From assembly GCA_003212335.1 (NCBI GenBank), contig QCQA01000009.1, forward strand, positions 1-49,125: 49,125 nt of DNA, written 5' to 3'. The notes under the pieces were generated by a model. It searched no databases and was not told the origin of the DNA. It saw only the letters and a program-made list of their open reading frames with translations. This DNA is from SAR86 cluster bacterium AG-447-A08 (lineage in GTDB: Bacteria; Pseudomonadota; Gammaproteobacteria; Magnimaribacterales; Magnimaribacteraceae). Within the stretch, counting starts at the first letter, position 1. The number at the start of each line of letters is the position of its first letter. Below are positions 5,018-20,636 of the stretch, piece by piece. Both the position numbers and the translations under genes were made by a program.

Positions 5018-6268
5018 CTAATAGATTCTAGATACAGCGGACTTTTCTTCTTCAGCTGAATCGGAACGTCTTAGGTCCATTTGCTTCCAAACATCATCAA
5101 GGGCGTCCAAGAAATGATCTATATCGCTTGCTTCATGACGAGGAGTGATAGTTACCCTGAATCTTTCATCGCCCTTTGGAACCGTTGGGTAAAAAATAGG
5201 CTGAATGTATATTCCATGCTTTTCTAGCAGAAGGTGAGCCGCCTCTTTACAAAGCCTAGGGTCATAGAGATGAATCGGTATTATATGACTGTCATTCTCT
5301 AGGAAAGGTATTTGCAGTTCTCTTAAGCCTGCTCTAATTCGATCAGAGTTAATTCTTATGTTTTCCCGTAGATCTTCAGAGGTCATAGCAATCTTAATAC
5401 TTGTAATGGATGCTGCTGCTATAGACGGATTCATAGAAGATGTGAAGATGAAACCAGGAGCAAAACTTCTGATGTAGTCAATAATATCAGCATTTGCCGC
5501 GACATAACCACCCATCTGTCCATAGGATTTTGATAATGTGCCGTTGATAATATCTATTTCATCTTCGAGTCCTTTTTCAGCCGTTATGCCTCTACCCTCA
5601 GGACCATATAAGCCTACTGAATGGACTTCATCCAGGTAAGTTAGAGCATTGTATTTTTTGGCAATGTCGATTATTTTTTGTAATGGAGAACGTAATCCTT
5701 CCATGGAATAAAGAGATTCAAAAACAATTAGTTTGGGCGTATTTGCATTAGCGGTATTTAAGAGCTCCTCTAAATGTTCTGTGTCGTTGTGTCTGAAGAT
5801 ATGTGTTACTACATCAGCATTTTTTATACCTTGTATTAGAGAGGCATGATTTAGCTCATCAGAAAAAACTTCTATCCCCTCCATGTTCTTGCAGAGAGTC
5901 CAAAGAGTCGATTGATTTGCTGTATACGCTGAAGGGAAAAGAAGTGCAGATTCTTTTCTGTGAAGATCAGCAAGGAGCCTTTCAAGATCTACATGATATG
6001 TTGAAGTACCAGAAATATTTCTTGTTCCACCTGATCCAGTGCCAAGTTCATTTATAACCTCAATAGAGGTCTTAGTTACTTCTGGGTGTTGGCTTAAGTT
6101 TAAGTAGTCATTACTACACCAAACTTCAACTTCTCTTTCTTTACCTTCAAATCTTTCGGTTGCCTTGGGAAAGCTAGATTTGTTTCTATTTATAGCTCTA
6201 AACTTTCTATATAGACCCTGAGATTTAAGTGAAACTAACTCGTCCGAGAAGAATTTTTTATAGTTCAT
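5018..6268 (-). CDS. hemA: 5-aminolevulinate synthase (C4 pathway)
   Basis: PLP enzyme condensing glycine with succinyl-CoA to 5-aminolevulinate, the first step of heme synthesis by the Shemin route. It shows the ALAS N-terminus (FRAINR, then VWCSNDYL at about residue 50), GSGGTRNISGTSTYHVDLE, the LDEVHSVGLYGPEGRG segment with the PLP-binding Asp, and the Schiff-base lysine in GTLSKSYGQMGGY. Length 416 fits the family. The related enzymes KBL and AONS (BioF) are alternatives by fold, but the long N-terminus, the RNISGT motif and the adjacent hem genes point to ALAS. ATG start; divergent from hemCD across 108 bases. ALAS is unusual in Gammaproteobacteria, which mostly use glutamyl-tRNA. Confidence 0.92.
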   Translation of the reverse strand: MNYKKFFSDELVSLKSQGLYRKFRAINRNKSSFPKATERFEGKEREVEVWCSNDYLNLSQHPEVTKTSIEVINELGTGSGGTRNISGTSTYHVDLERLLADLHRKESALLFPSAYTANQSTLWTLCKNMEGIEVFSDELNHASLIQGIKNADVVTHIFRHNDTEHLEELLNTANANTPKLIVFESLYSMEGLRSPLQKIIDIAKKYNALTYLDEVHSVGLYGPEGRGITAEKGLEDEIDIINGTLSKSYGQMGGYVAANADIIDYIRSFAPGFIFTSSMNPSIAAASITSIKIAMTSEDLRENIRINSDRIRAGLRELQIPFLENDSHIIPIHLYDPRLCKEAAHLLLEKHGIYIQPIFYPTVPKGDERFRVTITPRHEASDIDHFLDALDDVWKQMDLRRSDSAEEEKSAVSRIY

Positions 6269-6376
6269 GAATTAATTATTGATAAAAGTTAATATAATCA
6301 GACTTGAAAAGGACGCCATTATAAAACGTTATCGATTAGTGTGGGTTCTTAAGAATTATTCTCATTTAGTTTTAAA

Positions 6377-7873
6377 TTGAAAACCTTAAAAATAGTATCA
6401 AGGAAAAGCCCTCTTGCTAGGATTCAGGCTCTTCTTGTAGCTAAAAAAATAACACAGGCTTTTCCTAAACTAGAAATAAAACACATATATAAAAATACTC
6501 TGGGTGATGAAGATTTAACGACACCTCTAAATGAGATGCCTGACATTGGTGTGTTTACTAGTGATATCAGAACTGACCTTCTTAATGGAGTTGCAGATAT
6601 TGCAGTTCATTCCTGGAAAGACCTACCAGTTGATCTTGAAGGAGGCACTGAGATACTTGGAACAATTGATCGCGCAGATATGAGAGATATGATCTTTTTA
6701 AAAAAAGATAGCATTGGAAAGGAGAATCTAAATATCTTGAGCTCTTCTCCTAGAAGAGAAAAAAATCTTTCTGGCTTTTTACCTTCAGCGCTTCCATTTC
6801 AAACTCAGATTAATTTTAAAGATGTGAGAGGTAATATTCACACTAGATTGACTAAGTTGCTTGAAGGCACGGAGGATGGTCTTGTTGTTGCTAAAGCCGC
6901 CATAGATAGATTCCTGCAAAATAGAACTAGCGAATTTGAACAAGAAAGGTTATCTCTCCTTGAGATGCAGAAAGACCTGAAGTGGATGGTGCTCCCTCTA
7001 TCTCAAAATCCATGTGCAGCTGCTCAAGGAGCTCTTGCAATTGAAGCTCGACAAGAGGATGAAGAGGTAAAAGAAATTATTTCCACTATTACAAATACAG
7101 AAATTTTTAAATCTGTTGAGGTCGAAAGAACAATATTGAAGTCTCATGGTGGGGGCTGTCATCAAAAGATCGGTGTCAGTCATGAAATCCTAGAAACAAC
7201 TGAATTATTGACAGTAAGAGGTGAGACTGAAGAGGGGGAAGATTTGTCTGAAAGATTACTTAAGAGTAATGATGATAACTATTTTGATTCTATAAATAGT
7301 GCTAATTATTTTCCAAGCAATAAATCGGAGCAAAAGTTTTTTAAGCGCGTGCCAATTACAGACTCTGAAATAGTCTTGAAAGGTACTAAGAATAAGGGAA
7401 TATATATAAGCAGATCCAATGCGATAGAAGGCCCCGGACTTATAGATGATTCAAATATCATCTGGACAAGCGGCATAGACACTTGGAAGTCGATGGCAAC
7501 AAAAGGATATTGGGTAAATGGAACCTCAGACAGCCTTGGAGAAAATAACTCTCCTGAAGTAAGTCTATTTCAAGATATAGATTGGCTTAAGTTAACGCAT
7601 AAAGATAATCGCGATGAAGAAAAAGAAGTGATTGCAACTTATGAATTAAAGGCTTTAGATATTTCAGAAAGACTTTTGAGTTGTGACTATTTCTATTGGA
7701 TGAGTGCCAGCTCCTTTGAGCTCGCAATAAAAAAATATCCTGAAATTAAAAAAAGAAATCATGCTTGCGGTCTTGGAAAGACTTTCAAATCCATACAAAG
7801 GACTATCCCACAAGTAACTCCATTTCTAGACTTTGATAGTTGGTTAGAAGCCATAAATAATAAGATAAAATAA
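6377..7873 (+). CDS. hemC: Probable HemC-HemD fusion: porphobilinogen deaminase / uroporphyrinogen-III synthase
   Basis: Residues 1-300 are a divergent hydroxymethylbilane synthase: SRKSPLARIQA at the N-terminus, the catalytic Asp in ADIAVHSWKDLP, AAAQGALAIEAR, and the dipyrromethane-attachment cysteine in HGGGCHQKIGV. Residues from about 335 to 498 are extra. They begin KGIYISRSNA, and contain WMSASSFELAIKKYP and NHACGLGKTF, which look like the weakly conserved HemD signature (a serine-rich SASS-F strand followed by C-G-x-T). So one chain probably makes uroporphyrinogen III from porphobilinogen. The start is TTG at 6377: the reading frame is closed at 6350-6352 and no ATG occurs until residue 53. 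The HemD half is less certain than the HemC half. Confidence 0.85.
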   Translation: MKTLKIVSRKSPLARIQALLVAKKITQAFPKLEIKHIYKNTLGDEDLTTPLNEMPDIGVFTSDIRTDLLNGVADIAVHSWKDLPVDLEGGTEILGTIDRADMRDMIFLKKDSIGKENLNILSSSPRREKNLSGFLPSALPFQTQINFKDVRGNIHTRLTKLLEGTEDGLVVAKAAIDRFLQNRTSEFEQERLSLLEMQKDLKWMVLPLSQNPCAAAQGALAIEARQEDEEVKEIISTITNTEIFKSVEVERTILKSHGGGCHQKIGVSHEILETTELLTVRGETEEGEDLSERLLKSNDDNYFDSINSANYFPSNKSEQKFFKRVPITDSEIVLKGTKNKGIYISRSNAIEGPGLIDDSNIIWTSGIDTWKSMATKGYWVNGTSDSLGENNSPEVSLFQDIDWLKLTHKDNRDEEKEVIATYELKALDISERLLSCDYFYWMSASSFELAIKKYPEIKKRNHACGLGKTFKSIQRTIPQVTPFLDFDSWLEAINNKIK

Positions 7874-7890
7874 ATACCTGTTGCCTAAGG

Positions 7891-7896
7891 TATAAT
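7891..7896 (+). promoter_or_regulatory. Candidate -10 box upstream of hemB
   Basis: A perfect TATAAT stands between hemCD and hemB, 23 bases before the hemB ATG, preceded by GG. No good -35 hexamer is found 16-18 bases upstream, only AT-rich sequence. It could give hemBEFJ a promoter separate from hemCD. The match is short and the region is AT-rich, so this is tentative. Confidence 0.35.
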
Positions 7897-7919
7897 GCCC
7901 CACTGTTATTTCAATTAGC

Positions 7920-8915
7920 ATGAACGTATCCAGAAAATACCCTCAATCAAGATTAAGGCGAACAAGATTTACTTCTTCAATTAGGAGTTTAGTTGCAGAG
8001 AACACCCTCAGTGTGGACGACCTAATACAGCCTATATTTGTAAAGGAAGACCTAGATGGAACGGAAAGTATAGATTCCCTGCCAGGGATTAACAGGTATG
8101 GTCTTAACGCTTTAGATGAAGAAATTGAAAAAATACAAAGCAATAAGATCAAGGCTGTTGCTATTTTTCCGGTCATAAATCCTGATAAAAAAGACGAGCA
8201 AGGAAGTGACTCATTAAATGAAGATAATTTAGTTTGTACTGCTATAAAACAAATTAAGAAAAATTCTGAGCTAGCCGTAATAGCAGATGTTGCTTTAGAT
8301 CCCTACACGTCTCATGGGCATGACGGCGTTTTAGATGAAAATGGATATGTCGAAAATGACAGAAGTCTTTCTCTTCTCGTAAAACAAGCACTTACCCTTG
8401 CAAAAGCTGGGGCAGATATGGTGGCTCCATCAGACATGATGGACGGAAGAATAGCAGATATTAGAGAGTCCTTAGAATCCAATGATTTTGTAAATACCAT
8501 CATTCTTTCTTATGCTGCTAAATATAGTTCAAAATTTTATGGCCCTTTTAGGGATGCTGTAGGATCCTCCGCAAATCTTGGAGTAGGAAGTAAAGATACC
8601 TACCAAATGTCTGTGGCAAATGTAGAAGAAGCTCTGCATGAAGTGAAAATGGATATTGAAGAAGGTGCCGATATAGTTATGGTTAAACCTGGAATGCCTT
8701 ATCTTGATGTTATTAAAGCAGTTAAAGATACATTTAGAGTCCCTACTTTTGCATATCAGGTAAGTGGTGAATATGCCATGTTGAAAGCAGCAATAGAAAA
8801 TGGATGGTTATCAGAAGAAGTTTTACAGGAATCCTTGTTAAGCTTCAAAAGGGCTGGTGCAGATTGTGTTTTGACCTATGCTGCCAATGAAATAGCCTTA
8901 AAGTTAAATCGATAG
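7920..8915 (+). CDS. hemB: Delta-aminolevulinic acid dehydratase (porphobilinogen synthase), Mg-type
   Basis: Condenses two 5-aminolevulinate molecules into porphobilinogen. The active-site loop reads DVALDPYTSHGHDGVLDENG, with aspartates where zinc-type enzymes such as E. coli HemB carry cysteines, so it should be a magnesium- or metal-insensitive type like that of Pseudomonas. The two Schiff-base lysines lie in SSKFYGPFRDA and VMVKPGMPYLD. Length 331 is normal. ATG start, 46 bases after hemCD and 4 before hemE. Assignment is secure. Confidence 0.96.
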   Translation: MNVSRKYPQSRLRRTRFTSSIRSLVAENTLSVDDLIQPIFVKEDLDGTESIDSLPGINRYGLNALDEEIEKIQSNKIKAVAIFPVINPDKKDEQGSDSLNEDNLVCTAIKQIKKNSELAVIADVALDPYTSHGHDGVLDENGYVENDRSLSLLVKQALTLAKAGADMVAPSDMMDGRIADIRESLESNDFVNTIILSYAAKYSSKFYGPFRDAVGSSANLGVGSKDTYQMSVANVEEALHEVKMDIEEGADIVMVKPGMPYLDVIKAVKDTFRVPTFAYQVSGEYAMLKAAIENGWLSEEVLQESLLSFKRAGADCVLTYAANEIALKLNR

Positions 8916-8919
8916 AGTC

Positions 8920-9939
8920 TTGCCTAATAAGAAATTCATAAATGCTATAGAGAGAAAGCCCCAGGCATGTCCTCCGATATGGCTTATGAGGCAAGCTGGA
9001 CGATATCATGATCACTACCAAAGCTTAAAAAAGGATCATACTTTTGAAGAACTTTGTAAACAGCCCATCCTTGCGGCCGAAACTGCGATGGGACCTATTA
9101 ACGAATTTGACTTTGATGTCGCAATTCTATTCAGCGACATATTATTCCCTCTCGAAGCGCTTGGTATGGATTTATCCTACAACCCAGGGCCTCAATTTGG
9201 TCTTCACCTAAGCGAAGACAATGCTGAAAGCTTACTGATAAATCAAAACCCTATAAGCTTTATGGAATTTCAAGGTGAAGCGATAGAGCGAACTATTGAA
9301 AGATTACCCATTGAAAAGTCTTTAATAGGCTTTGTTGGTGGGCCTTGGACTTTAATTGCCTACGCATGCAATATCAGTAAAGATTCCAGGAATATCAATT
9401 TCAATAATTTTCAAATAGGTCTTCTAGATAACGTGATTCTTCCACTTCTTAAAGAGAATGTGGAATTACAATTGAATGCGGGAGCTGAGGTGGTAATGAT
9501 CTTTGACTCGACTGCCCATCAACTTGCCGAAGAAGACTTAAATATCTACTTAGAGAAGACCTTCAATATGTTAGTCAAAGAATTTCCCAATAAGGTTGGT
9601 TACTATGCAAAAGACGGGGTTAACTATGAAACTATAATTGCGAAACAAAATGACCCTCAAATAAGCTTAGCCGGAATGGGTATAGACTCTAATGTCGATC
9701 TAAGAGATTACTTTAAAAAAACTTCAAATGGCTTCGTACAAGGTAATTTTAGTGAGCACTTCTTAACCCTCCCCCATGAGGAATTCTTGCCAAAACTAGA
9801 TACTTTCATAGAACAAATGTCAGTGCTATCACCAGAAGAAAGATCGGGTTGGGTTTGTGGACTAGGCCATGGAGTTCTGAAAACAACGCCTCAGGAAAAC
9901 GTCAAAGAATTTGTACAAAGAATCAGGGCATCCTTTTAA
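8920..9939 (+). CDS. hemE: Uroporphyrinogen decarboxylase
   Basis: Removes four acetate carboxyls from uroporphyrinogen III to give coproporphyrinogen III. The signature PPIWLMRQAGRYHDHY is at residues 18-33, the substrate-binding Asp is in ILFSDILFPLEALGM, and the C-terminal GLGHGVLKTTPQENVK segment is present. The wording around RYHDHYQSLKKDHTF and FDFDVAILFSDILFP differs from the usual proteobacterial RYLPEYR type and, from memory, resembles leptospiral HemE more. The start is TTG at 8920, four bases after the hemB stop; there is no ATG in a suitable position. Function is secure, origin is speculative. Confidence 0.94.
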   Translation: MPNKKFINAIERKPQACPPIWLMRQAGRYHDHYQSLKKDHTFEELCKQPILAAETAMGPINEFDFDVAILFSDILFPLEALGMDLSYNPGPQFGLHLSEDNAESLLINQNPISFMEFQGEAIERTIERLPIEKSLIGFVGGPWTLIAYACNISKDSRNINFNNFQIGLLDNVILPLLKENVELQLNAGAEVVMIFDSTAHQLAEEDLNIYLEKTFNMLVKEFPNKVGYYAKDGVNYETIIAKQNDPQISLAGMGIDSNVDLRDYFKKTSNGFVQGNFSEHFLTLPHEEFLPKLDTFIEQMSVLSPEERSGWVCGLGHGVLKTTPQENVKEFVQRIRASF

Positions 9940-9942
9940 AAA

Positions 9943-10755
9943 ATGGATATTGAAGAAAAAAAATCCTTAACTTCGTCTTGGTTTAGAGAACTAAGAGATA
10001 TGTTCTGCGAAGAATTTGTCGATATAGATGGCGGGAGTTTTGAAAGAAAAAACTGGGATCATAAATTTGAAGGGGGCGGAGAGATGAGCCTCATGAAAGG
10101 TGAAGTTTTTGAAAAGGTTGGTGTAAATATATCTACGGTATCGGGAAAATTTGATAATGATTTTAAATCTGAAGTTAAGGGCACAGAGGAAGCGCCTAAC
10201 TACTGGGCAAGTGGTATCAGTCTAGTGGCACACATGCAGTCACCCAAAGTACCAGCATTTCACTTTAATACTAGATACATAGTCACTGGAGATTCCTGGT
10301 TTGGAGGTGGAGGAGATTTAACTCCAACAATTAAAAAAGAAGAAGAAATTGAGTTTTTTCACAAATGCATGAAAGAAGCTTGTGATTCGGCTGATCCAGA
10401 TTATTACGATAGATATAAAAAGGCTTGTGATGAATATTTCTATCTACCCCACAGGTCAGAAGCCAGGGGTGAAGGTGGAATATTTATAGACCATTTAAAA
10501 ACAAACGATTGGAATAAAGATTTTAGCTTTATAAAAGAAGTAGGTTTATCCACCCTAAAAGCAATTACAACAATTATCAGAAATCTCAAAGATGAGGAAT
10601 GGACGGAACAGGAAAAAGAGCAACAACTTATCAAAAGAGGTCGCTATGTTGAGTTTAATTTGCTTTGGGATAGAGGAACTGCGTTTGGCATAAAAACTGG
10701 GGGCAATTCGGATGCTATATTGATGTCTATGCCGCCTACTGCCAAATGGGATTAG
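9943..10755 (+). CDS. hemF: Oxygen-dependent coproporphyrinogen III oxidase
   Basis: Converts coproporphyrinogen III to protoporphyrinogen IX using O2. Recognised by GDSWFGGGGDLTP, YFYLPHRSEARGEGGIF and the C-terminal block RYVEFNLLWDRGTAFGIKTGG followed by SMPPTAKWD. The protein stops right after that block at 270 residues, about 30 shorter than E. coli HemF. I recall alphaproteobacterial HemF proteins ending in the same way, so this is more likely a lineage feature than damage. ATG start 3 bases after hemE; its TAG directly abuts the hemJ ATG. An O2-dependent enzyme implies aerobic life. Confidence 0.94.
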   Translation: MDIEEKKSLTSSWFRELRDMFCEEFVDIDGGSFERKNWDHKFEGGGEMSLMKGEVFEKVGVNISTVSGKFDNDFKSEVKGTEEAPNYWASGISLVAHMQSPKVPAFHFNTRYIVTGDSWFGGGGDLTPTIKKEEEIEFFHKCMKEACDSADPDYYDRYKKACDEYFYLPHRSEARGEGGIFIDHLKTNDWNKDFSFIKEVGLSTLKAITTIIRNLKDEEWTEQEKEQQLIKRGRYVEFNLLWDRGTAFGIKTGGNSDAILMSMPPTAKWD

Positions 10756-11181
10756 ATGAATACCTACTTAATTTTTAAAACCATTCATATAATCTCGGTA
10801 ATTACCTGGATGGCTGCCCTATTCTATCTTCCAAGACTATTTGTATATCACTCCACTAAGGAAGTAGGCTCAGACGCTTCTGAGACCTTTAAGGTGATGG
10901 AGTCTAAGTTACTGAAAATTATTGCAAATCCATCTCTAATTCTGGTTTGGATATCAGGCCTGGCCCTTTTGAGCTACAAAGGTTTAGAAATTTGGCTGGT
11001 TTTAAAAATGTTTCTTGTCATGGGCATGACTCTTTTTCACTTTTATCTGAATTTTCTCAGGGTAAGTTTTGAGGCCGATTCCAACACAAAATCGGAAAAG
11101 TTTTTTAGGGTTATAAATGAAATACCCACAATACTGTTACTGATAATAGTTGTGCTGGTTGTCTTTCAACCCAGATTTTAA
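10756..11181 (+). CDS. hemJ: Protoporphyrinogen IX oxidase, HemJ type (UPF0093 membrane protein)
   Basis: Four-helix integral membrane protein of 141 residues that oxidises protoporphyrinogen IX to protoporphyrin IX. The N-terminal HemJ signature is clear: KTIHIISVITWMAALFYLPRLFVYH, given here in words as a conserved His followed by W-M-A, then LPRLFVYH. The conserved lysine is in WLVLKMFLV and a second histidine in TLFHFYL. It starts immediately after hemF (TAGATG), so the two are co-translated. Its last codons overlap the convergent hydrolase gene by 4 bases. Ferrochelatase is not in the window. Confidence 0.92.
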   Translation: MNTYLIFKTIHIISVITWMAALFYLPRLFVYHSTKEVGSDASETFKVMESKLLKIIANPSLILVWISGLALLSYKGLEIWLVLKMFLVMGMTLFHFYLNFLRVSFEADSNTKSEKFFRVINEIPTILLLIIVVLVVFQPRF

Positions 11182-13352: not shown

Positions 13353-14729
13353 TTAAATATTTACCCATTCTCCATGGAATCCAAATGGCACTCTTTGAGG
13401 TAAGTGCACTGTAGCCAACGGACCCGATTTTGGTTCCTTAGCATTTAGAATTATCAAATCACTATTATCAGTTTCTTGGTTATACACAAGAGACAATAAA
13501 TAGCCTTCGTCTTCCGATTTAGCACCCTCAGCTGCTACAAATACTGGCTCAGCACCGAATTTTCCAAATCCATATTCATAAACTTCAGAGGTATCATTTT
13601 TAAAGTCGTATTTAACAATCTCTTTAAAATCCGGCTCAATAGTATTCGAGGACGCTAACGCGTAAGCATATTGATTAGATTTTCCTACCAGACTAGGATT
13701 TATTCTTGGAAACTCTACGGCTCTATCATCCAGTTTAGTCGACATTGCTTGACCAGATTTTGGATTTAACTCCCACTTAGTAAGTTGAGGAGGAGATTCC
13801 GTGAAAGGCCCATTCCAATCAGTATCAAATAATCTGTCATAAGCTGCAGCGGTGACAATTACATTACCATTTGAATCTTCATGAGCATTAAATGTATGAA
13901 AAAAATAAGTTCTATCAATGTCAAACCACTGCACAGCATCTGAATCTCCATTTCTGCTCAATAAACCTATTCGAGACTGATGATTGTCATCCCAAGAAAA
14001 AGGGAAATACCCTCTTCCGAGCTTATAAAGATCAAAAACAACCGACAGATCAAACACCAGCATATAGTTTTTAGTAATCGCACATTCATGCAACATAGAC
14101 CTAGACTCAAAAGGTATAGATTGAGTTTTCTTATGCGACCCATTTTGATCAATTACTACATAGTCAACAGTATCAAAATTATTTGCGTAGTCATAACACA
14201 TGGCATGCAACTCGTTAGTATCTGGATCAAGCTTGGGATGAGCGGTGAAGCCCGCGTTTTTGTCTCCGTAAAAAGGTTTGGTATTGAGCGAGTTGAGATC
14301 CTGATCAATTTCTACAGGGTAACCACCGGCCTCAACTATGGCATAAATTTTTCCTGAATGAGAGATAACACTTGTGTTGGCATTAGAATCATTGCCGTCT
14401 ACAAGTTTATTTTTATACCAAAGTGCATTACCAGAATCTAATCTAATGCCATGAAGCATTCCTTCTCCTAAGAACCAATGATGTTTTTTTTCATTTACTG
14501 AAGACATTGGATTTGGACCATTTCTTACAAACAGACCTGACAAGTCTTTGGGAATTTGTCCTGTCACCTTAAGACCTACCTCAGAAATAAGATTTTTTAC
14601 AGGCGCATAATTTCCCTGCAAGTAATAATTCTTTTTTGCTGTAATTCCTGACATGTCTACTCCTATTCCTGCAACAGCTAATCCTCCAAGACTTAGGCTG
14701 GAAACTTTTAAAAACTTTCTTCTGTTCAT
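13353..14729 (-). CDS. Tat-exported carotenoid oxygenase family protein (RPE65/CCD/LSD-like)
   Basis: Non-heme iron dioxygenase of the carotenoid/stilbene cleavage family, 458 residues. The four iron-binding histidines are visible: His164 (FTAHPKLD), His214 (SMLHECAI), His278 (FFHTFNAHED) and His452 (FGFHGEW). FVRNGPNP near residue 70 is the family's N-terminal signature. The N-terminus NRRKFLKVSSLSLGGLAVAG is a twin-arginine signal, so the folded iron enzyme is probably sent to the periplasm, which is uncommon for the family. Substrate (apocarotenoid, retinoid or stilbene) is not readable. First gene of a four-gene unit, facing a TetR gene across operator-like sites. Confidence 0.92.
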   Translation of the reverse strand: MNRRKFLKVSSLSLGGLAVAGIGVDMSGITAKKNYYLQGNYAPVKNLISEVGLKVTGQIPKDLSGLFVRNGPNPMSSVNEKKHHWFLGEGMLHGIRLDSGNALWYKNKLVDGNDSNANTSVISHSGKIYAIVEAGGYPVEIDQDLNSLNTKPFYGDKNAGFTAHPKLDPDTNELHAMCYDYANNFDTVDYVVIDQNGSHKKTQSIPFESRSMLHECAITKNYMLVFDLSVVFDLYKLGRGYFPFSWDDNHQSRIGLLSRNGDSDAVQWFDIDRTYFFHTFNAHEDSNGNVIVTAAAYDRLFDTDWNGPFTESPPQLTKWELNPKSGQAMSTKLDDRAVEFPRINPSLVGKSNQYAYALASSNTIEPDFKEIVKYDFKNDTSEVYEYGFGKFGAEPVFVAAEGAKSEDEGYLLSLVYNQETDNSDLIILNAKEPKSGPLATVHLPQRVPFGFHGEWVNI

Positions 14730-18759: not shown

Positions 18760-19746
18760 ATGATTCTAGAACATGGCCCAACACATACAAAAGACATATC
18801 TCAAGCTAAAGCAGACTTAAGTAAATTTGGTTATTGCATAATTCCTGAGGTACTTAGTGACTCTGAAATAGAGATTTCTAAAAAAAGACTCCTTGAGCAA
18901 GCCGAAGCTGAAGAAGAGCTGGGATTGTCTTTCAGGGATGGTGGAGCTGATCAAGAAATTAAGCTTAAAGATGGAAGAGTTGATAAGGACTCATTTAGTA
19001 CCAAGAATGGAGGTGTGAACCAACGGCTTTGGATGTTAGCAAATAAAGGGGAATGTTTTAGGGATATGGTCACTCACCCCTTGGTGGATGAACTCGTTGG
19101 ATATATTTTGGGTGATGATTTCATTTTATCTACCCATTCAGCAAACATAGCTAAACCTGGCGGCGTAAGGATGGGCCTACATACAGATCAATGGTGGATG
19201 CCTCAACCAGTTAAAGCAGGAGAAAATTATATTAGACCCTCCGAAATATCTAGAAAGGCTGATACGGGTTTTGTAGAACCAGATTTATCTCTCGGCATTT
19301 CTCCACCAGTTGTAGCCAACTGTATGTGGATGCTATCTGATTTTTCTCCAATAAATGGAGCTACAGAAGTTGTTCCTGGGTCTCACTTAACCGGAGCGCA
19401 TCCTAATCAAGAAGATCAAAGTGCCTACCCCATAAATCAACCTGAAGCCAAAGCGGGCTCTTTAATGGTTTTTGATGGAAGATTGTGGCATGGAACAGGC
19501 GCCAATAGAGGAAATACAGATAGATTGGGCGTCCTTACAACTTTCTGCTCTCCTCAATTTAGGCAACAAGAAAATCAGACTCTGGGCCTAGATAGAGATC
19601 TTTGGGAGTCTTGCTCTGAAAAATTAAAATCGAGATTAGGTTTTAAGGTTTGGAATGCTTATGGAAGGATTGAAAGCTCTATGGATTATCTTATAGATAT
19701 CGAACCTGAAAGAATCAAAGAACTGAAACCCACTAATAAGAATTAA
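18760..19746 (+). CDS. Phytanoyl-CoA dioxygenase (PhyH) family protein, copy 1
   Basis: Fe(II)/2-oxoglutarate oxygenase, 328 residues. The HxD part of the iron triad is in RMGLHTDQWWMP and the distal His in DGRLWHGTGANRG; the arginine of TDRLGVLTTF probably holds 2-oxoglutarate. Opens with FGYCIIPEVLSDSEI, the usual PhyH N-terminal strand. Its stop codon overlaps the start of the second PhyH gene (TAATG), so the two are co-translated. The substrate is unknown; marine bacteria carry many such enzymes acting on lipids, osmolytes or secondary metabolites. Confidence 0.9.
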   Translation: MILEHGPTHTKDISQAKADLSKFGYCIIPEVLSDSEIEISKKRLLEQAEAEEELGLSFRDGGADQEIKLKDGRVDKDSFSTKNGGVNQRLWMLANKGECFRDMVTHPLVDELVGYILGDDFILSTHSANIAKPGGVRMGLHTDQWWMPQPVKAGENYIRPSEISRKADTGFVEPDLSLGISPPVVANCMWMLSDFSPINGATEVVPGSHLTGAHPNQEDQSAYPINQPEAKAGSLMVFDGRLWHGTGANRGNTDRLGVLTTFCSPQFRQQENQTLGLDRDLWESCSEKLKSRLGFKVWNAYGRIESSMDYLIDIEPERIKELKPTNKN

Positions 19747-20636
19747 TGAATACTGCAGATTTAAAAGTCTTGAACTATCCTCCCTTAACAGAGGATTTAG
19801 AAGAAGCTAAAACTCATCTTGATAAATATGGCATGGCTTTAATTGCCAATGTTTTAAATGAAGGCGAAGTAGAAGAAATGGACAAGAGGCTCAATGAGCA
19901 ATTCTTGGGCGAGGAAAAGCATAAGGTTGGGTCAAAAGTCCGAGGAGATGAAGGCCTTGGCATAGAATCTTCTGAAGAGGAAAAGGTTAGTAGGCTTGTT
20001 TGGAATCTCATAAATAAAGGAGATTGCTTCTTAAAACTCATTGATCATCCCAAGATATTACCCCTTATCCAGCACCTAATAGGCAAGAAGGTTTGTCTTT
20101 GCTCTATGGGGGCTCATATGAATGGAAGTGGTAATGAAAAAATGGCCTTACATCAAGATCAATGGCCATTAGTTCCTCACCCTATGGAGTTCCCTTTTAT
20201 GGCAAATGTAATGTATTTAATATCAGATAACTCACCTGAGAATGGAGGAACGAGACTAATCCCGGGGTCACATAAGTGGCCGCTGATAGATTATAAGACA
20301 GCAAATGAAGAAGAGATTCAAAAAATGGCTGTTTCATTAACTGCCCCTAAAGGAACGGCAATTGTTTGGGAAGGACGACTTTGGCACGGCAATGGGCTTA
20401 ACAGATCAGGATCTATCAGGAGCAATATCTCAACGGCTTTTTTACAACCTTGGGTTAAACCCCAAGAAAATCATCAATACAGCATTCGAGACGAAGTGCT
20501 ACAAAAAATAACGGATAAACAAAAACACATATTGGGCTTTAGCTCATTTGGAACACTTGGTGGACATGATGGATCTAGCGTCTCTCCTGCTGAGTTTGAT
20601 CCAAAGAGAGAGTCTATAGGTATTCTAAAGCCTTAA
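19746..20636 (+). CDS. Phytanoyl-CoA dioxygenase (PhyH) family protein, copy 2
   Basis: Paralogue of the preceding gene, 296 residues. Iron ligands are in MALHQDQWPLVP (HxD) and EGRLWHGNGLNRSG (distal His); SDNSPENGGTRLIPGSHKW matches SDFSPINGATEVVPGSHL in copy 1. Start ATG overlaps the previous stop. The two differ in the N-terminal third and around the active-site entry (WWMPQPV against WPLVPHP), so they probably act on different substrates or successive steps, or form a heteromer. An alpha/beta hydrolase follows after 6 bases. Confidence 0.9.
   Translation: MNTADLKVLNYPPLTEDLEEAKTHLDKYGMALIANVLNEGEVEEMDKRLNEQFLGEEKHKVGSKVRGDEGLGIESSEEEKVSRLVWNLINKGDCFLKLIDHPKILPLIQHLIGKKVCLCSMGAHMNGSGNEKMALHQDQWPLVPHPMEFPFMANVMYLISDNSPENGGTRLIPGSHKWPLIDYKTANEEEIQKMAVSLTAPKGTAIVWEGRLWHGNGLNRSGSIRSNISTAFLQPWVKPQENHQYSIRDEVLQKITDKQKHILGFSSFGTLGGHDGSSVSPAEFDPKRESIGILKP

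Follow-up and report, generated by a model that had tools for sequence, protein, structure and literature searches.

The window analysed here is a stretch of 49,125 nucleotides from SAR86 cluster bacterium AG-447-A08 (contig QCQA01000009.1) and carries at positions 5018-11181 six heme biosynthesis genes of the C4 route, in which 5-aminolevulinate (ALA) is formed from glycine and succinyl-CoA. This cluster is very probably a mosaic operon, imported as a block from marine Alphaproteobacteria in place of the C5 (glutamyl-tRNA) route, with the porphobilinogen synthase HemB as a resident gene. The five other proteins, namely ALA synthase (ALAS), the fusion protein HemCD, HemE, HemF and HemJ, group with their counterparts from marine Alphaproteobacteria. 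SAR86 is abundant in the ocean, and two of its families are found on the C4 route, apparently by way of the replacement of a whole pathway and with a recognizable partner group; their heme cost would be tied to glycine and succinyl-CoA instead of glutamyl-tRNA, and SAR86 families are set apart by a core pathway. The enzymes are already known; of the switch of the whole pathway in SAR86 no published account was found in the open-access literature (most subscription journals lie outside this coverage). The words heme, hem, porphyrin and tetrapyrrole do not occur in the main text of PMC11582366.

All six reading frames are open at the coordinates given in Table 1. ALAS, on the minus strand, is divergent from HemCD, HemB, HemE, HemF and HemJ, which follow one another in this order on the plus strand with gaps of 0-46 bases. 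NCBIfam bit scores were judged against the curated cut-offs, with Pfam used alongside. A C4 cluster with a HemC-HemD fusion in a gammaproteobacterial setting had been described in an earlier note made from the letters of the window, and the open frames, the family scores (for HemE that of Pfam) and the position of the host in the SAR86 order bear out this description. KBL or AONS as the identity of the ALAS gene, also raised there, is ruled out by the NCBIfam scores: KBL (NF005394, 322.1 bits, cut-off 460) and BioF (TIGR00858, 321.8 bits, cut-off 426.45) both stay below their cut-offs. The top PDB sequence matches are the ALAS structures 7x98 and 2bwn.

Judged by its sequence, the ALAS of the window would make ALA from glycine and succinyl-CoA, and HemB would convert ALA to porphobilinogen. 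HemCD would polymerise porphobilinogen and close uroporphyrinogen III on one polypeptide, and HemE, HemF and HemJ would lead on to protoporphyrin IX, into which a ferrochelatase encoded elsewhere would insert the iron. A ferrochelatase gene is present outside the window in the same genome (G000:C1:100643-101626; 230.3 bits for the whole ORF, against a cut-off of 124.6), so that the parts list covers the way from glycine and succinyl-CoA to heme.

Table 1. Features of the heme gene cluster in the window (bit scores are given against the family cut-off).
Feature	Position	Strand	Evidence
ALAS (5-aminolevulinate synthase)	5018..6268	-	TIGR01821, 552.5 bits vs 338.55
Divergent intergenic region, 108 bases, presumed to hold both promoters	6269..6376		ORF coordinates
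HemCD fusion, 498 aa, TTG start	6377..7873	+	TIGR00212, 186.2 vs 164; fold models
HemB (porphobilinogen synthase), DVALDP site	7920..8915	+	NF006762, 468.3 vs 297; tree; motif counts
HemE (uroporphyrinogen decarboxylase)	8920..9939	+	PF01208, 221 vs 23.9; tree
HemF (oxygen-dependent coproporphyrinogen oxidase), alphaproteobacterial type	9943..10755	+	NF003727, 350.6 vs 297; tree; topology tests
HemJ (protoporphyrinogen oxidase)	10756..11181	+	TIGR00701, 143.1 vs 138.05; tree without gammaproteobacterial rows

Gammaproteobacteria normally make ALA via the C5 route. With a limit of E 1e-110, ALAS was found in 4 of 369 sampled members of this class, SAR86 accounting for two of them, and in a sample of the phylum in 127 of 398, all except three of them from another class. 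The SAR86 sample comprised 121 genomes from four families, here called f1 (34 genomes, the family of the window), f2 (33), f3 (33) and f4 (21), and among these the heme route splits by family, with C4 in f1 and f3 and C5 in f2 and f4. ALAS exceeded its cut-off in 19/34 genomes of f1 and 28/33 of f3 (which additionally holds a split copy in G093 and a fragment in G079), and in 0/33 of f2 and 0/21 of f4. Glutamyl-tRNA reductase (GluTR) was over cut-off in 32/33 genomes of f2 and 15/21 of f4, and HemL in 51 of the 121, every one from f2 or f4 (51/54); in f1 and f3 neither of the two exceeded its cut-off in a single genome (0/67). The same holds for the genome of the window, a draft of 31 contigs and 88% completeness, where the gene scoring highest for GluTR encodes a shikimate dehydrogenase and the top HemL match reaches 336.7 against a cut-off of 527.3. 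The suggestion that the cluster makes the C5 genes dispensable is in line with these counts, and the combination of a C5 pathway with a KBL or AONS identity of the ALAS gene does not occur here.

The families f1 to f4 appear to correspond to Magnimaribacteraceae, Suzuki, RedeBAC7D11 and CHAB-I-7, respectively. Estimated genome sizes are 1.59, 1.39, 1.28 and 1.03 Mb for f1 to f4 (from 14, 12, 12 and 10 more complete genomes), and the G+C contents of the fetched loci are 37.0% (8 loci), 33.0%, 33.9% and 33.5%. Taken in this order, these sizes and G+C contents are similar to those given for the four named families in PMC11582366, where Magnimaribacteraceae have 1.66 Mb, 36.3% G+C and four genera. 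In the species tree from the same source Magnimaribacteraceae are joined with RedeBAC7D11, and Suzuki with CHAB-I-7. If the family naming is right, f1 and f3 are sister families, and one switch of route is therefore enough.

The layout of the window is identical in 20/20 of the f1 and f3 loci fetched. A scan of 84,980 species genomes for HemCD confirmed 228 relatives; among the best 80 of these 228, which were used, OCS116, the PS1 clade, MED-G09, a Hyphomicrobiales record, Pelagibacterales and unnamed Alphaproteobacteria stand behind SAR86. The HemCD of marine Alphaproteobacteria matched near end-to-end with 41-46% identity, and their loci mostly have ALAS divergent from HemCD, followed by HemE, HemF and HemJ. 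OCS116 (L210), the PS1 clade (L219) and Pelagibacterales SAG-MED31 (L222) share with the window the divergent ALAS and HemCD, the succession of HemE, HemF and mostly HemJ, and the same tree clades. They differ in the HemB slot, which is empty in PS1 and Pelagibacterales-type loci and holds a cysteine-rich HemB in OCS116-type loci, in the HemH carried by Pelagibacterales-type loci, and in a longer divergent region (median 661 bases in 32 loci, against 108 in 26 f1 loci and 101 in 37 f3 loci). ALAS and HemCD are divergent in 95/95 loci where both genes were read (26 f1, 37 f3 and 32 marine-alphaproteobacterial loci, with several contigs entered twice, e.g. L126 and L169), and the arrangement is therefore not due to chance. 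The aligned divergent regions of the 26 f1 loci have AT-rich conservation and no nameable motif. One bin titled Gammaproteobacteria (L217) carries a PS1-like alphaproteobacterial cluster and is possibly misbinned.

The layout had initially been likened to that of the hem cluster of Leptospira, which is a C5 organism. The match found here is instead with marine Alphaproteobacteria, Leptospira itself not being part of the comparison. According to PMC8698207, the HemC-HemD fusion of Leptospira interrogans likewise joins HmbS and UroS, both activities having been reported; its sequence was not compared with those studied here.

Gene trees were built from a chosen subset of six f1 rows, five f3 rows, at most 13 rows from marine Alphaproteobacteria and up to 10-12 each from other Alphaproteobacteria and Gammaproteobacteria, with other subsets for HemH, HemJ and HemCD. 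ORFs of less than 75% of the reference length (for HemCD, less than 231 aa) were dropped, including the HemB fragment of G631, and L225 was left out of A6 (ambiguous residues). The HemF search gave none in G370 and G573. The HemF of the cluster forms a clade (100/99) placed among Alphaproteobacteria (93/84), within which f1 and f3 together are one clade (99/98), and the HemF of the C5 families of SAR86 sits with other Gammaproteobacteria (100/100). Uniting all SAR86 HemF as one clade is rejected (p 1.3e-5), as is a grouping of SAR86 with Gammaproteobacteria (p 0.0037), in agreement with the earlier impression that the end of HemF is alphaproteobacterial. The HemE of the cluster forms a clade (100/100) apart from other Gammaproteobacteria, and a single clade of all SAR86 HemE is likewise rejected (p 0.001).

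In the ALAS tree SAR86 and marine Alphaproteobacteria stand together on one side (100/100) with SAR86 as one clade (100/98), and uniting the SAR86 proteins with those of two other ALAS-bearing Gammaproteobacteria is rejected (p 7e-8). As a pointer to the donor the ALAS tree is not decisive. ALAS was seen in three Gammaproteobacteria outside SAR86, L092 (G281), G764 and L094 (G222); in the tree the G281 and G222 proteins pair off as a separate, long-branched clade. Cluster clades were also recovered for HemJ (100/99; a tree with Alphaproteobacteria only besides SAR86) and for HemCD (100/100; the only other rows were unfused HemC proteins from C5 SAR86 and from a single alphaproteobacterium). 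Since the HemCD and HemJ trees had no other Gammaproteobacteria, a common grouping of the cluster proteins with that class was judged on ALAS, HemF and HemE, and in none of these three is it recovered. HemH falls into three groups, the in-cluster gene of f3 with Pelagibacterales-type genes (100/99), that of f1 as a separate clade (100/99) and that of C5 SAR86 as another (99/97).

HemB is the exception. In a tree without the divergent rows of marine Alphaproteobacteria the HemB of all four SAR86 families stands on one side (100/100), and uniting the HemB of C4 SAR86 with that of Alphaproteobacteria is rejected (p 0.0013). The DVALDP site is present in 25/25 f1 and 39/39 f3 rows of the SAR86 cluster HemB, and the marine-alphaproteobacterial cluster HemB has a cysteine-rich metal site in 7/7, which we take to be of the Zn type; the two kinds of HemB share about 36% identity on average. 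From the tree, the site and the low identity together, the HemB of the window appears to be a resident SAR86 gene that fills a slot in an imported operon. The mixed or foreign origin proposed at the outset is thus supported, the greater part of the cluster being foreign, with ALAS, HemCD, HemE, HemF and HemJ going with marine Alphaproteobacteria and HemB with SAR86 itself. The HemB of OCS116-type loci (L207, L209-L211, L213, L214 and L225), located between HemCD and HemE, shares about 32-36% identity with every other group.

The C5 families f2 and f4 belong to the SAR86 order, as does the host of the window cluster, and have a HemB of the same clade. They differ in having GluTR and HemL and no ALAS, in separate HemC and HemD, the latter with an ordinary HEM4 match, and in HemE and HemF of other clades than those of the cluster.

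The donor would have been an oligotrophic marine alphaproteobacterium of the PS1/OCS116/Pelagibacterales kind, and the block would have comprised ALAS, HemCD, HemE, HemF and HemJ, with HemH in addition in f3. The import most likely occurred once, prior to the split of f1 and f3, and would have displaced GluTR, HemL and the native HemC, HemD, HemE and HemF. The old HemB would have been kept and now lies inside the incoming operon, at the place that a very different HemB occupies in OCS116-type loci. The direction of import is inferred mainly because of the placement of HemF and the rarity of ALAS in Gammaproteobacteria.

Several observations weigh against an import of this kind or against parts of it. 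A clade of marine Alphaproteobacteria without SAR86 is not rejected for ALAS (p 0.278), which touches on direction, and in the HemCD tree, where the outgroup branch is long, the f3 rows look basal and one of them (L135) goes with marine Alphaproteobacteria (97/97). Both can be read in favour of SAR86 as the donor, with the cluster assembled there and passed to PS1/OCS116 and Pelagibacterales, the marine Alphaproteobacteria being nested in the HemCD tree. We consider this improbable, as the cluster HemF is nested in alphaproteobacterial HemF and its grouping with Gammaproteobacteria is rejected, and ALAS is rare in the latter class and common in the phylum sample. The cluster is flanked by different genes in f1 and f3, and this, the position of L135 and the HemH, which f3 has within the cluster and f1 outside it and from a different clade, would fit two imports or a transfer between SAR86 families. 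Such a history is rather unlikely in view of the single clade formed by f1 and f3 in the ALAS and HemF trees and of their sister position in the published tree, provided that the naming is right.

The remaining points against the import concern individual trees and scores. The HemJ and HemH trees are without any non-SAR86 Gammaproteobacteria, and when the marine-alphaproteobacterial rows are included in the HemB tree a weak branch (28/84) joins them to the HemB of C4 SAR86, which we read as long-branch pull. HemE stays below the cut-off of NCBIfam TIGR01464 (211.2 against 302.95), yet is well above that of the Pfam URO-D family. Seven genera were sampled in f1, against the four given for Magnimaribacteraceae (PMC11582366). 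Finally, the ALAS node that joins PS1/OCS116 and SAR86 falls from 96/81 to 88/56 on adding phage rows.

Many contigs of IMG/VR carry relatives of ALAS, of which a single scan confirmed 81 (viral contigs L361-L440), and a phage could have carried the cluster into SAR86 from a phage-borne ALAS. This is very improbable, since 9/11 of the sampled phage rows form a clade of their own (100/99) and one is found among Alphaproteobacteria, L361 stands next to the marine cluster clade but is long-branched, and HemCD was found on no viral contig. The phage AlaS described in PMC11480375 resembles the enzyme of the window in that it belongs to the Shemin route and occurs in aquatic samples outside the genomes of Alphaproteobacteria, but falls mostly into a separate clade here.

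An error of binning or assembly has the draft state of the genome in its favour and is nevertheless next to negligible: the cluster and its flanking genes recur in many separate assemblies, a SAR86-type HemB lies inside, and the cluster genes have 36-39% G+C against 38% in the adjoining uvrD. The same values leave base composition without any signal as a sign of transfer.

The TIGR00212 match of HemCD is confined to residues 4-291 of 498, and the protein consists of a hydroxymethylbilane synthase (HMBS) at about residues 1-300 and a C-terminal domain with a predicted fold of uroporphyrinogen III synthase (UroS) at 304-498. The fusion first noted is supported accordingly, its HemC part by family score and its HemD half by predicted fold only. 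AlphaFold2 modelled the whole protein with a predicted local distance difference test (pLDDT) of 91.4 from 34 sequences, about 300 columns of which align to HMBS structures (1ah5 at E 2.5e-24). For residues 304-498 alone the pLDDT is 89.4, and the eight top PDB matches of this model are all UroS (E 1.8e-5 to 5.8e-3), the ninth being another fold (E 0.048). Because the UroS matches have moderate template modelling (TM) scores of 0.40-0.61 by query length, we read the model as pointing to a UroS fold and take UroS activity as putative.

The HemD half has no Pfam or NCBIfam family match, and its PDB sequence profile search gave nothing useful. Pfam HEM4 matches 0/20 fusions at E up to 10 (a separate HEM4-type HemD was not sought in the genome of the window) and 0/3 isolated C-terminal domains, but 5/5 separate HemD of the C5 families of SAR86, and a profile comparison of the C-terminal domain with the latter gave a probability of 3%. 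These misses and the TM scores leave some room for a C-terminal domain that is not a working UroS, with HemD encoded elsewhere or the ring closing spontaneously. This is unlikely given the uniform UroS matches and the motifs of the domain, which are conserved across SAR86 and marine Alphaproteobacteria, and on the model the C-terminal domain is probably a UroS. Since Pfam misses it, pathway callers may score HemD as absent in these bacteria. The HemC of C5 SAR86 seemed at first to be without HMBS motifs; closer inspection revealed variant motifs and a retained cysteine.

In 15 of the 34 f1 genomes there is no ALAS over cut-off, no HemCD and no HemB, and GluTR is over cut-off in none of the 15. 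These are G017, G041, G053 and G115 (genus g3), G025, G069, G085, G100, G106 and G118 (g4), G097 (g6), G103 (g7), and G049, G088 and G094; twelve of them represent every sampled member of the four genera g3, g4, g6 and g7. HemF was sought in eight of the 15 and found in none of these, and ferrochelatase was found in 8/15. Completeness ranges from 51 to 93% and single absences may be gaps, but because the absence follows genus it is unlikely that the losses are mere gaps. To judge from gene content, the 15 are possible heme auxotrophs. SAR86 genomes are without heme transporters according to PMC5225302. SAR86 lineages that may need outside heme are flagged in this way, which bears on cultivation.

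A tentative variant of the import from marine Alphaproteobacteria, possible but not favoured, has a heme auxotroph, already without most of the heme pathway, as the common ancestor of f1 and f3. Prototrophy would have been regained in one step by import of a C4 cluster that was almost complete, with only the old HemB kept and later moved into the operon. If this is true, heme synthesis in ocean bacterioplankton would be a trait that can disappear and return through the transfer of clusters, a view suggested by the additional losses in f1.

Two genes from the flank of the heme cluster the window contains a gene of the carotenoid cleavage dioxygenase family at 13353-14729 (RPE65, PF03055, 363.7 bits), with an NCBIfam carotenoid dioxygenase score below cut-off. 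At 18760-20636 two PhyH dioxygenase genes lie side by side, followed by an alpha/beta hydrolase.

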